Positions 23,986-27,352 of a stretch of 64,000 nucleotides of DNA are shown here, one piece after another (within the stretch, counting starts at the first letter, position 1; every line of letters begins with the position of its first letter). A program made the translations under genes and the position numbers. Source of the stretch: Glycocaulis sp. (lineage in GTDB: Bacteria > Pseudomonadota > Alphaproteobacteria > Caulobacterales > Maricaulaceae); assembly GCA_022565665.1 (NCBI GenBank), contig JAIUMI010000008.1:1-64000 (forward strand). Reading direction: 5' to 3'. Below the pieces are notes generated by a model. The model was given only the letters and a program-made list of their open reading frames with translations, did no database searches and was not told the DNA's origin.

Positions 23986-25242
23986 ATGCCTATGACCACC
24001 CTGAAACGTCTGGCTGTGTGCCTTGCCATGCCGCTGGGCCTTGCCCTGTCAGCTCCGGCTGCCGCGCAGCAGGTGGAAGGCATCGCCGCCATCGTCAACG
24101 ACCAGCCGATCACCACCTTCGATGTGCGTGACCGCATGCGCCTCATCCTGTCCTCTGCCGGCATCCAGCCGACAGAGGATGTGCTCGTTCAGGTGCAGGA
24201 GCAGGCAATGCGCTCCCTGATCGAGGAGGCGTTGCAGCTTCAGACCGCGCGGCGCTTCGAAGTGCCGGTCAGCGAGGAAGAGGTGGATGAGGCGATTGCA
24301 GATATCGCCGCACGCAACGGCATCACCGTCGAAGAAATCCGCCTCGACCTGGAACAGTCCGGCGTCAGTATCGACACGCTGCGCCAGCAATTGCGCGCCG
24401 AGATCGCCTGGTCCTATCTGGTCAGCGGCCGCTATCGCAGCCGCATCCGCGTCACCGATGCGCAGATCGATACCGCGCTGGAGCGCCTGGCCGAAAGCGC
24501 GTCCCAGACCCAGTACCGGGTCGCCGAGATCATGGTCAACCTGCCCGCCAGCGGCGATGAAAGCGTGGCGGAGCAGCGCATGGCCGCCGTCTATAACGCG
24601 CTGGAGCAGGGCGCGCCCTTCCCGGCGATTGCCAGCCAGTTTTCCGACGCTCCAACCGCCGCAACGGGCGGTGATGCAGGCTGGCTGAGCGCTGGGCAGA
24701 TGCGCCCTCAAGTCGCCCAGATGATCCAGCAAATGCCCGTCGGCTCCATCTCCAATCCGATCCGGGTGCCCGGCGGCTACATGATCGTGGCGGTCGCGGA
24801 CCGGCGCGAAGGACAAGCCACCGAACAGATATCCCTGCAGCAGATCACACTGCTCACCTCACAGGTGACCGATGAGCGCCGCCAGGCGCTGACGCGCGCC
24901 GCCCAACGGGTGAGTGGCTGTAACAATCTGGCCTCCGTGTTCGAGGCGGTGCCCCAGGCGATCATCACCGATCTGGGTACGGTTGGCGCCAACGCGCTTG
25001 TTCCGAATATCCGTCAGGCCCTTTCCGGGCTGCAGAACGGCCAGGCAAGCCCGGTGCTGGAAACCGGTGCCGGCCTGCAGGTCTTCGTGCTGTGCGACCG
25101 GCGCATTGGCGGTCCTGGCATGCCCGGACCGTCTGACGTGGAAAACCAGATCGTGAACCAGCAATTGTCCATGCTGGCCCGCCGCTGGCTGCGCGATCTG
25201 CGCAATGACGCGACCGTGGAGATGGTCGGCTACAACGAGTAG
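23986..25242 (+). CDS. surA: Periplasmic chaperone / peptidyl-prolyl isomerase SurA
   Basis: A 418-residue exported protein. The signal peptide ends at APAAAQ (about residue 28), followed by the SurA N-domain VEGIAAIVNDQPITTFDVRD and one parvulin-type PpiC domain (about 180-275, from TQYRVAEIMVNLPASG to GGYMIVAVADRR). Only one parvulin domain is evident, fewer than the two of E. coli SurA. SurA delivers unfolded outer-membrane proteins to BAM. It is followed by pdxA ten bases later, the conserved surA-pdxA-ksgA order. ATG 23986 is chosen for the spacing to GGAAACG; ATG 23992 is an alternative. Confidence 0.9.
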   Translation: MPMTTLKRLAVCLAMPLGLALSAPAAAQQVEGIAAIVNDQPITTFDVRDRMRLILSSAGIQPTEDVLVQVQEQAMRSLIEEALQLQTARRFEVPVSEEEVDEAIADIAARNGITVEEIRLDLEQSGVSIDTLRQQLRAEIAWSYLVSGRYRSRIRVTDAQIDTALERLAESASQTQYRVAEIMVNLPASGDESVAEQRMAAVYNALEQGAPFPAIASQFSDAPTAATGGDAGWLSAGQMRPQVAQMIQQMPVGSISNPIRVPGGYMIVAVADRREGQATEQISLQQITLLTSQVTDERRQALTRAAQRVSGCNNLASVFEAVPQAIITDLGTVGANALVPNIRQALSGLQNGQASPVLETGAGLQVFVLCDRRIGGPGMPGPSDVENQIVNQQLSMLARRWLRDLRNDATVEMVGYNE

Positions 25243-25252
25243 AGGCGCGTCC

Positions 25253-26251
25253 ATGGCCCGAGCACCGCTCGTTCTGACGCTCGGTGACCCGGACGGTATT
25301 GGCCCGGAAATCGCGCTCAAGGCTCACGCCGCAATACAGGCTGACGGCCCCTGCCTTGTGCTCACAGGCGACCCTGCCCCGCTGGAGATGTCTGCGCGCT
25401 CGCTCGGACTGCCACCACCCGTGCTCGTCAAGACACTGGGTCAAGCTCGCAGCGCGCCGCGCGACAGGCTGGCCATCCTGCCAGCGCAGGGCAGTCACCC
25501 GGTTCTCGCTTCCATCGAAAAGGCGGTGGAACTGGCCCTGTCGGGCGAAGCGGGCGGCATTGTCACCAGCCCGATCTCCAAGGCCTCGCTCTACGAGGCG
25601 GGGTTCGGCTTTCCCGGACATACCGAGTATCTCGCGCACCTGACAGCTTCAGCGCCCATGGAAGGGCCGCGCGGGCCGGTCATGATGCTCGCCGCGCCGG
25701 GCCTGCGCACCGTGCTGGTGACCATCCATCAGAGCCTGAAAAACGCGATTGAAAGCCTGACTCCGGAAGCTGTCATCCACACCGCCCGCGTCACGCATCA
25801 CGCGCTGAAGACCGATTTCGCGATTGCCTCGCCGCGCCTCGTGCTCGCCGGGCTCAACCCCCATGCCGGAGAAGGCGGAGCGATGGGGCGAGAGGAGATC
25901 GAGATACTGGCGCCTGCGCTCGAAGTCCTGCGCGGCGAAGGCCTGGACATCTCAGGCCCGCTGCCGCCGGATACGATGTTTCATGCCGAGGCACGCGCAA
26001 ATTACGATGCCGCCATCTGCCTCTATCACGATCAGGGTCTGATCCCGGTCAAGACGCTGGATTTCCATGGTGGGGTGAACGTTACTCTGGGCCTGCCCAT
26101 CGTGCGCACCTCGCCTGATCACGGCACCGCGAAAGACATTGCCGGCAAAGGCGTAGCAAGAGCCGACAGCCTGATTGCAGCCATCCGTCTTGCCGCAGAA
26201 CTCGCCGCCAACCGGGTTAGGGCCTGTGCTCATAAAGGGTTTGGTGCGTGA
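25253..26251 (+). CDS. pdxA: 4-hydroxythreonine-4-phosphate dehydrogenase, C-terminus supplied by an inserted element
   Basis: A 332-residue metal-dependent enzyme of pyridoxal-phosphate synthesis. It has LTLGDPDGIGPEIALKAH at the start, GFPGHTEYLAHLT in the middle, and the late block YHDQGLIPVKTLDFHGGVN and TSPDHGTAKDIAGKG. The final ten codons (RACAHKGFGA) lie inside the left inverted repeat of the element at 26220-26486, so the native tail was replaced or extended. All catalytic blocks lie upstream, and the enzyme is probably active. It is part of surA-pdxA-ksgA. Confidence 0.94.
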   Translation: MARAPLVLTLGDPDGIGPEIALKAHAAIQADGPCLVLTGDPAPLEMSARSLGLPPPVLVKTLGQARSAPRDRLAILPAQGSHPVLASIEKAVELALSGEAGGIVTSPISKASLYEAGFGFPGHTEYLAHLTASAPMEGPRGPVMMLAAPGLRTVLVTIHQSLKNAIESLTPEAVIHTARVTHHALKTDFAIASPRLVLAGLNPHAGEGGAMGREEIEILAPALEVLRGEGLDISGPLPPDTMFHAEARANYDAAICLYHDQGLIPVKTLDFHGGVNVTLGLPIVRTSPDHGTAKDIAGKGVARADSLIAAIRLAAELAANRVRACAHKGFGA

Positions 26252-26486
26252 TATGCGCGAAAATCGTCCAATATCAGGAGCAGGCCCGATGGAAGTGCAC
26301 TCCCCTTTCGAGGGACTGCGACGCAAGAGTGGGCGATTTTCGCCATACCCCTTCGGGGCGCGGCGGATTTCACCCCTGACGGCGTCGAGCCGCCCTTATG
26401 GAGGGACGCTCCACGGTGGCCGTCTCTCCTTGTCAGGCGCAAAATCCGCTACGCGTCACGCCCGAAACCTTTATGAGCACAGGCCC
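26220..26486. mobile_element. MITE-like element with about 31-bp terminal inverted repeats and TA flanks
   Basis: A 267-base non-coding insertion between pdxA and ksgA. The ends match as inverted repeats: the first 19 bases (GGGCCTGTGCTCATAAAGG) are identical and similarity continues to about base 31 with one gap and two or three mismatches. Both ends abut TA (26218-26219 and 26487-26488), as expected for a TA target duplication. Inside are two further palindromes: GCGAAAATCG/CGATTTTCGC (26257-26266, 26334-26343) and GCGGATTT/AAATCCGC (26363-26370, 26442-26449) with CCTGAC/GTCAGG nested in the latter. No transposase is encoded. It is probably a non-autonomous derivative of an insertion sequence; the parent is not in the window. 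Confidence 0.8.
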
Positions 26487-26491
26487 TACGC

Positions 26492-27352
26492 ATGAGCGCC
26501 GATACCCTGCCGCCCCTGCGTGAGGTGATCGCCGCCCACGGGCTGGGCGCTGACAAGCGCTTTGGCCAGCATTTCCTGCTGGACCTCAACCTGACCGCCA
26601 AGATCGCCCGGCTGTGCGGGGATATGAGCGCGGCAACGTTCGTCGAAATCGGCCCCGGCCCAGGCGGGCTGACCCGCGCCCTGCTGAGTGAAGGCGCACG
26701 GCGCGTCATCGCCATCGAGAAGGATGCCCGGTTCCTGCCCGCGCTCGAAGAGGTGTCAGCGGCTTTCGGGAGTCGCCTGAAGGTCATCGAAGCCGATGCC
26801 CTGACCATCACGGCCACAGCGCTGGGGCTGGAAGACGGTGAGCGCGCCATCATCGCGGCCAACCTGCCCTATAATGTCGGCACCGCGCTCTATACGGGCT
26901 GGCTGGAGGCCGAGCCGGTCTGGTGGTCGCGTGCGGTCCTGATGTTCCAGAAGGAAGTGGCGCAGCGCATCGTCGCGCCTGTCGGCGATGACGCCTATGG
27001 CCGTCTGGCCATCCTCACCGCTGCAAGGGCGCAGGCGAAATACGCCTTCACCCTGCCCGCAAGGGCCTTCACGCCGCCACCGAAAGTCGACAGCGCCGTG
27101 GTGGTGGTCGACCCGCTGCCCGATGGCGAGCGCTTTGACGACACGCAGGCGCTGTCTGCCGTGACGGCCAGCGCGTTCGGCCAGCGCCGGAAGACACTGC
27201 GCAAATCGCTGGCTCAGGCCGCCTCGCAGACCCGCGCCAGCGCGGAAGAGCTGCTTGCCGCCTGCGATATCGATCCGGGCGCACGCGCCGAGACCATTCC
27301 GCCGGAGGGCTTCATGGCGCTGGCCAGAGCGTGGCGCGCCGCCCGGAGCTGA
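26492..27352 (+). CDS. rsmA: 16S rRNA dimethyladenosine transferase (KsgA/RsmA)
   Basis: A 286-residue SAM-dependent enzyme that dimethylates A1518 and A1519 of 16S rRNA. Family blocks are KRFGQHFLLDLNLTAKIA (about 23-40), the SAM loop VEIGPGPGGLTRALL (51-65) and NLPYNVGTALYTGWL (from 124). It starts only four bases after the TA flank of the inserted element, so its original upstream sequence and ribosome-binding site have been replaced by element sequence. Confidence 0.96.
   Translation: MSADTLPPLREVIAAHGLGADKRFGQHFLLDLNLTAKIARLCGDMSAATFVEIGPGPGGLTRALLSEGARRVIAIEKDARFLPALEEVSAAFGSRLKVIEADALTITATALGLEDGERAIIAANLPYNVGTALYTGWLEAEPVWWSRAVLMFQKEVAQRIVAPVGDDAYGRLAILTAARAQAKYAFTLPARAFTPPPKVDSAVVVVDPLPDGERFDDTQALSAVTASAFGQRRKTLRKSLAQAASQTRASAEELLAACDIDPGARAETIPPEGFMALARAWRAARS

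Follow-up and report, generated by a model that had tools for sequence, protein, structure and literature searches.

MITEs are usually viewed as decaying derivatives of a single insertion sequence (IS). Among the bacterial MITEs mobilized by IS elements, the passages of PMC2229807 on such repeats include RUP, with IS630-Spn1, as well as Correia, ERIC, and others. The same passages describe the CIR elements of Caulobacter and Brucella, which are about 110 bp long, contain GANTC, and have two ends that do not pair; Bru-RS1 and Bru-RS2 of Brucella measure 103 to 105 bp in the corresponding part of PMC2267715. The IS427 elements of Paracoccus, in the part of PMC3281130 that treats them, are 832 to 865 bp long, nearly all with 2-bp duplications, and contain two overlapping ORFs, with one exception.

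The window analyzed here, a stretch of 64,000 nucleotides from Glycocaulis sp. (contig JAIUMI010000008.1), contains between pdxA and ksgA a sequence (positions 26218 to 26488) that, judged by comparison with its other copies, is a MITE-like mobile element. It is best regarded as a non-autonomous MITE that IS5-family transposases, specifically those of the IS427 kind, most likely mobilize in trans (probability about 0.8); matching ends point to this class of transposase.

The element and its boundaries

The element has no assigned strand and is 271 bp long, including the TA at both ends, with its ends set by comparison with other copies. It has the features expected of a MITE: inverted terminal repeats, a length below ~500 bp, and no transposase gene. 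The left terminal repeat with its TA (26218 to 26244, plus strand) reads TAGGGCCTGTGCTCATAAAGGGTTTGG, and the right one occupies positions 26462 to 26488 on the minus strand. These repeats are 27 nt long and 93% complementary, with TA at the outer edge of each, and the outer 21 bases (TA plus 19) of the two ends are identical, in agreement with the initial annotation, which described inverted repeats abutting TA. With up to 3 mismatches allowed, the 19-mer is found in the window at 2 places, the two ends themselves, against 0.01 expected.

The two nested palindromes noticed earlier inside the element correspond to two hairpin arms, which flank a small central hairpin, P3 (26348 to 26358, no strand; CCCCTTCGGGG), defined by the fold and the alignment. 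Arm P4 (26359 to 26455, plus strand) is a hairpin module of 97 nt that is detected by covariance models R1 (E = 1.3e-21) and R2 (E = 3.3e-27); both models were trained on sets that include this copy. Arm P2 (26252 to 26347) is a homologous hairpin module on the opposite, minus, strand; it matches R2 with 42.4 bits and an E value of 2.3e-9 (L001:1563-1658:-) and gives no R1 match at E = 0.01. The folding energy of the element strand is -87.9 kcal/mol, compared to -47.9 +/- 3.9 kcal/mol for shuffled sequences (z = -10.3).

The pdxA-ksgA junction

The genes pdxA (25205 to 26251) and ksgA (26492 to 27352), with surA upstream, are all supported by Pfam matches. The TGA that now ends pdxA (26249 to 26251, plus strand) lies within the element, a point missed in the initial annotation. 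In five congeners, the pdxA stop overlaps the ksgA start at ATGA, and the junction lacks the element in 5 of 5, so that the insertion proposed for this junction is borne out and the empty site of the window copy is known at the gene level. The empty orthologous junctions whose search had been suggested thus exist. Deleting the element together with one TA does not regain the pdxA frame of the relatives; an indel must therefore also have occurred at the end of pdxA. The insertion in the window does not coincide with a TAG in the pdxA frame; in this lineage, one copy would have landed within the pdxA-ksgA overlap. A simple consensus scan of positions 25900 to 26800 found no terminator-like or promoter-like site, which fits the earlier remark that the operon contains no clear terminator at this point.

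A reading frame at 26175 to 26495 stays open across the entire element, probably by chance, and terminates at the TGA overlapping the ksgA start. The same frame is open in 7 of the 9 Glycocaulis copies examined and, over all copies, in 16 of 49. No significant excess of variation is seen at its third positions, with values at least as high in 215 of 2,000 permutations for nine copies and in 664 of 2,000 for 56 copies, and it has no Pfam match. A protein-coding element was rejected on these grounds, and the earlier statement that the sequence has no coding capacity is probably right.

Copies and mobility

Copies of the element are present in 5 of the 6 Glycocaulis genomes, at various places, and there is none in G004. 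The search for copies elsewhere that had been proposed thus succeeded, and the element is not, as it would be if it were a resident feature of the junction, conserved there in relatives and absent from other sites. A copy in G002 has a base-exact empty site in both G001 and G003, where the insertion point is the TA of a stop codon, TAG: the orthologous site reads GGC-TAG-C without the element in G001 and G003 and GGT-TA[element]TA-AC in G002, with TA duplicated. Sequence comparison shows the mobility of the element, the TA duplication, and its target, in support of the earlier description of a non-autonomous, TA-flanked element.

The genome that contains the window (G000) encodes, on C3, a diverged 274-bp copy at 3.3 kb (L082) and a 192-bp copy at 29.2 kb that lacks arm P4 and has other ends. 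On C7 of the same genome, a solo element end is seen beside the TAA stop of a gene (G000:C7:8909-8929; L008:902-930); the remainder is absent, and this end is perhaps a remnant of an excision or a deletion.

Insertion target and stop codons

The target is YTAR in 48 of 51 copies (CTAG in 24, CTAA in 13, TTAA in 6, and TTAG in 5); this count covers the copies with TAG at both ends and omits the 24 listed copies without such a TAG. YTAR often coincides with the stop of a single gene or with a CTAG stop that two convergent genes share. On 50 of 97 sides, an ORF of at least 79 codons ends exactly in the in-frame TAG, compared to 18 and 11 for the other frames (5 of the 102 sides, with too little flank, were excluded, and orthologous insertions were counted separately). 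By position, the in-frame stop is found on the left only in 11 of the 51 copies, on the right only in 11, on both sides in 14, and on neither in 15. The 14 copies with an in-frame TAG on both sides are as expected of convergent genes sharing CTAG. Since the first base of the element is G, TA plus G restores a TAG stop, and many insertions would be tolerable. On a Terrarubrum plasmid, the element is located between the stop of the annotated sarcosine oxidase subunit beta gene and the start of that for subunit delta.

Candidate transposase

An IS427-type transposase would recognize ends of ~20 bp (TAGG...), insert at the TA within YTAR, and duplicate TA. The IS5 elements of relatives measure 840 to 879 bp between TAG-bounded ends and match NF033580, DUF4096, and DDE_Tnp_1. 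The candidate partners are accordingly ISs of 830 to 880 bp that are TA-flanked and contain two ORFs with DUF4096 and DDE_Tnp_1, as an IS5/IS427 partner should; their size, 2-bp duplication, and two ORFs agree with those of the Paracoccus IS427 group. In G001, an IS5-family element (DUF4096, DDE_Tnp_1, NF033580) is bounded by TAGGACACAGACTCATAATT and TAGGTCATAAACTCATAAAC, which are in register with TAGGGCCTGTGCTCATAAAG. In G001, one IS end agrees at 18 of 20 bases with a MITE of the same genome, and the other end at 18 of 20 with a MITE of another genome. The ends of the IS in Roseibium marinum share 17 and 18 of 20 bases with the MITE ends of the same genome, and those of the Brucella pituitosa IS share 20 and 17 of 20 with the MITE of a Tepidamorphaceae MAG. 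An unrelated-looking IS (L169) has only 11 and 12 of 20 bases in common with MITE ends. The search for IS ends demanded TAG, and 13 of the 30 IS5 loci yielded TAG-bounded ends, one of them (L171, 1,380 bp) doubtful.

The partner of the window copy itself is less clear. The IS end nearest to the window's own end agrees at 16 of 20 bases, with a variant of that end, and no pair of window-type ends at IS spacing is found within 2 mismatches in the 6 genus genomes. The suggested search for full-length, transposase-bearing elements with shared ends has given close matches for sister copies, on the IS5 elements of relatives, and within this scope none for the window's own end. NF033580 is matched at E = 0.001 in 4 of the 6 genus genomes, in 3 of them above the cut-off; there is no match in the MITE-bearing G003 and G005, and the genome of the window has none above the cut-off and a single match of 20 bits. 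G004 contains the IS and lacks the MITE. Among ten other MITE-bearing genomes, NF033580 is found at E = 0.001 in 5; G140, G373, Rhizobium alvei, RI_462, and the Tepidamorphaceae MAG have no match at this threshold. Given this lack of an above-cut-off match in the window's own genome and of matches in G003, G005, and half of the other genomes, the partner of the window copy is absent or lost, or may belong to another IS5 group.

The families in G084, G233, and G311 differ in the type of their ends, and the transposase sought for them was not found. In two sets of loci (L079, L084, L087, and L090, and L083, L086, L089, and L092), the same architecture is combined with ends TACC..., with an apparent TTA duplication, or AGTACTTAC...; these ends belong to G084 and G311.

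TA duplication and a CTAG-like target are typical of IS630. The initial annotation suggested IS630/Tc1 logic, by which the element would be an IS630/Tc1-mariner MITE with the same TA duplication and an IS630 transposase as the mover, and one IS630-type element is indeed present in G001. Yet PF13358 is found in just 1 of the 6 genomes of the genus, to which the IS630 search was confined, and the ends of the G001 element (TAGAGCGTTTTC...) share little with the MITE ends beyond TAG; the IS5 ends match much better. With no IS630 element with matching ends in the six genus genomes, an IS630 partner is not favored and appears improbable, and IS5/IS427 is the better candidate. The IS630-type element of G001 (L074:1400-2455) abuts the right end of the IS5-family element on the same replicon. 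The other possibility raised initially, an internally deleted IS, was rejected as well: no remnant of an IS is recognized by Pfam, including in the open frame, and the core forms a conserved, structured unit in its own right.

Structure of the core

The core is an inverted pair of homologous hairpin modules of ~97 nt around a small hairpin. Of 83 copies in the pool, from which copies with an end score below 17 or an E value of 1e-30 or more were excluded, 75 remained after removal of identical ones (L059 and L139 are one copy listed twice with shifted ends). The length is 263 to 274 bp in 66 of the 75 distinct copies, and five copies of 335 to 336 bp carry an additional double hairpin. In these Glycocaulis copies (L019, L020, L022, L023, and L024), the extra hairpin pair of ~65 nt adjoins arm P4; it is nearly identical between copies, is common to three genomes, and looks like a captured repeat that has spread with the element.

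Among 56 aligned copies, 66 pairs are common to the folds of both strands computed without G-U pairs; over the copies these are 95.6% Watson-Crick, and 49 of the 66 occur as more than one kind of Watson-Crick pair. In alignment A4, which has 43 distinct rows, both partners change in 26 of 29 pairs, and the covariation is strong, at 0.394, compared to 0.123 for shuffled and 0.069 to 0.106 for slid alignments; A4 was fitted to the model, so that these figures lean towards it.

Model R1, built from arm P4 alone and trained on no P2 arm, recovers P2, on the strand opposite to P4, in ten of the 47 loci scanned, with a best E value of 9.7e-8. Model R2, trained on 44 rows that include one P2 arm (L036), detects the two arms together, arranged as a divergent inverted pair, at 55 of 88 places, the window included, and the arms are 11 nt apart in 37 of the 55; the remaining 33 places include single-module elements, one deleted copy, and second arms that fall short of E = 1e-5. 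The model scans covered 47 (R1), 29, and 87 loci out of some 230, and matches on the opposite strand of the same arm, which represent palindromy, were left uncounted. Pairwise alignment of P2 with P4 in four single sequences was equaled or exceeded by 41, 190, 0, and 7 of 500 shuffles, which is weak in two of them; the homology of the arms is accepted because the covariance models found both. The consensus letters of P2 and P4 largely agree. Single-module elements measure 111 bp (L204), 119 bp (L207), and 165 bp (L199).

As far as searched, the family is not in Rfam. For positions 25700 to 27000 of the window, the best Rfam 15 match has an E value of 0.74, below gathering, and in ten divergent loci the only match is a cobalamin riboswitch in L192; a known RNA family was rejected on this basis. 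The riboswitch match (L192, 1221 to 1383; E = 5e-7) shares ~24 bases with a divergent copy of the element (1360 to 1629), at the left end of that copy.

Distribution and exchange of ends

Copies are found in Glycocaulis, Roseibium, Rhizobium, Brucella/Ochrobactrum, Stappia, Hyphobacterium, Terrarubrum, and others. Under strict filters, with at most 10 candidates scored in each case, R1 matches 6 of 385 alphaproteobacterial genomes, and R2, a one-module model, matches 25 of 398 genomes of Pseudomonadota, 13 of them outside the class, and 37 of 398 genomes within the order; the weakest R2 matches in both sets may be due to chance. Inspection of 31 loci revealed 23 elements of 255 to 308 bp, four shorter ones (111 to 216 bp), and four loci without a sensible element (L193, L200, L206, and L220). 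Two named gammaproteobacterial cases come from plasmid records, and each element has both arms: one of 268 bp in Halomonas sp. PA16-9 and one of 269 bp in Azotobacter chroococcum. A search with the window element matched 3 of 72,556 plasmid records. None of 50,697 phage records matched at E = 1e-5, and a phage origin was rejected.

In 20 of the 185 pairs of copies whose cores are at least 86% identical, both ends are at most 55% identical. The window copy is among these pairs: its core is 92% identical to that of L021, and the ends are 40% and 40% identical. The converse, ends at least 93% identical around cores at most 76% identical, was not found in any copy pair. Within one element, the two ends match each other at 15.9 of 17 positions on average. 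On these comparisons, near-identical cores carry unrelated end pairs, and the core is conserved independently of the ends.

Possible functions of the core

Because the core is not bound to one end type, transposase binding alone does not explain it; since it is kept in various Pseudomonadota whichever ends it carries, selection on it probably serves something beyond a single IS. A tentative proposal is that structured nucleic-acid modules form a superfamily spanning the phylum and spread as non-autonomous transposons on ends borrowed from whatever transposase is locally present. A module would travel alone (111 to 165 bp) or in an inverted pair (~270 bp) able to function in both orientations, and the cargo, not the ends, would be the evolving lineage. 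Read-through in either direction would yield one correctly oriented module per transcript, and the inverted pair may thus, in an equally tentative reading, supply every read-through transcript with such a module, which might, for example, form a structure at the 3' end and so protect or insulate the mRNA.

The strand on which the core would act bears on this proposal. Outside the conserved wobble columns, G-T and A-C mismatches number 39 and 49 (56 copies, no-GU structure) and, in the orientation of the model, 55 and 72 in P4 and 13 and 42 in P2; the conserved wobble columns show the opposite trend (G-T versus A-C, 52 versus 3 and 58 versus 7). With a first structure that allowed G-U pairs, arm P2 had 145 G-T against 22 A-C; this was taken to come from the conserved wobble columns and the G-U-favoring structure, and the no-GU structure was used instead. 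The even orientation to stops and the lack of a G-T excess outside the wobble columns make a strand-specific RNA unlikely, with the module-level test being mixed. Three features, namely, the strand-symmetric design of the core, the lack of G-T excess, and the absence of an orientation preference to in-frame stops, would equally fit a core that acts at the DNA level, where the hairpin pair, as a cruciform or on single-stranded DNA, promotes transposition or the binding of a host factor, whatever the transposase, under purely selfish selection; the retention of the core while the ends change also agrees with this. Such a role is nearly as probable as the RNA reading; an orientation-independent RNA predicts the same symmetry, and the letters conserved in the internal loops, like the conserved T-G wobbles, resemble a specific fold more than a mere palindrome.

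The covariation could also be a by-product of template-switching correction of quasi-palindromes, with no selection involved, as might be suggested by the close match of the two ends within each element even where ends differ between elements. This is unlikely: such correction would erase the mismatches, loops, and wobble pairs that persist in diverged copies, and the narrow length range of the copies likewise counts against it. Least probable by far is a conserved RNA of the host that is not mobile at all and regulates or attenuates pdxA-ksgA; the strong fold at an operon junction would be in line with it, but the junction is empty in all five congeners, the element is present elsewhere, and the pdxA-ksgA region has no Rfam match. 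The reading preferred here, with RNA and DNA roles nearly balanced, is a structure that, when transcribed, would function whichever way the element lies. That a folded core persists while its ends change suggests a selected cargo in elements of a class thought to be empty, and, as the family is often found at stop codons between genes, filled and empty junctions represent natural experiments on the effects of such structures on operons.

Comparison with known systems

No recognized description of this element family was found among the literature matches listed, from a coverage that leaves most subscription journals outside. The CIR repeats, as presented in the passages of PMC2229807, are similar to the element in being alphaproteobacterial intergenic repeats with two hairpin arms; unlike them, the element is depleted in GANTC and has ends that pair, which sets it apart from CIR by description. 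In 75 copies there are 31 GANTC sites, compared to 93 in one mononucleotide shuffle of each, and the motif is absent from 54 of the 75 copies versus 18 of 75 after shuffling; identity with CIR was rejected on the strength of this depletion. The Bru-RS1 and Bru-RS2 repeats are likewise palindromic and intergenic in alphaproteobacteria, and are set apart by description in the relevant part of PMC2267715, differing in size (103 to 105 bp versus 271 bp). Compared to the IS427 group of the IS5 family, as outlined in the section of PMC3281130 on these elements, the element is alike in the 2-bp duplication, the short inverted ends, and the similar end sequences, whereas it is only 271 bp long and contains no recognized transposase remnant. 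The element also resembles the IS-mobilized MITEs of PMC2229807, in the terms in which its passages characterize them: both are short, lack a transposase, have TA-flanked inverted ends, and are mostly intergenic. In contrast to those MITEs, the element has a likely partner of the IS5/IS427 kind, and its ends vary while a two-module core of near-constant length is kept across classes. The element is thus of a known kind, a MITE, and, as far as could be checked, its class-crossing conserved core with exchangeable ends is new.
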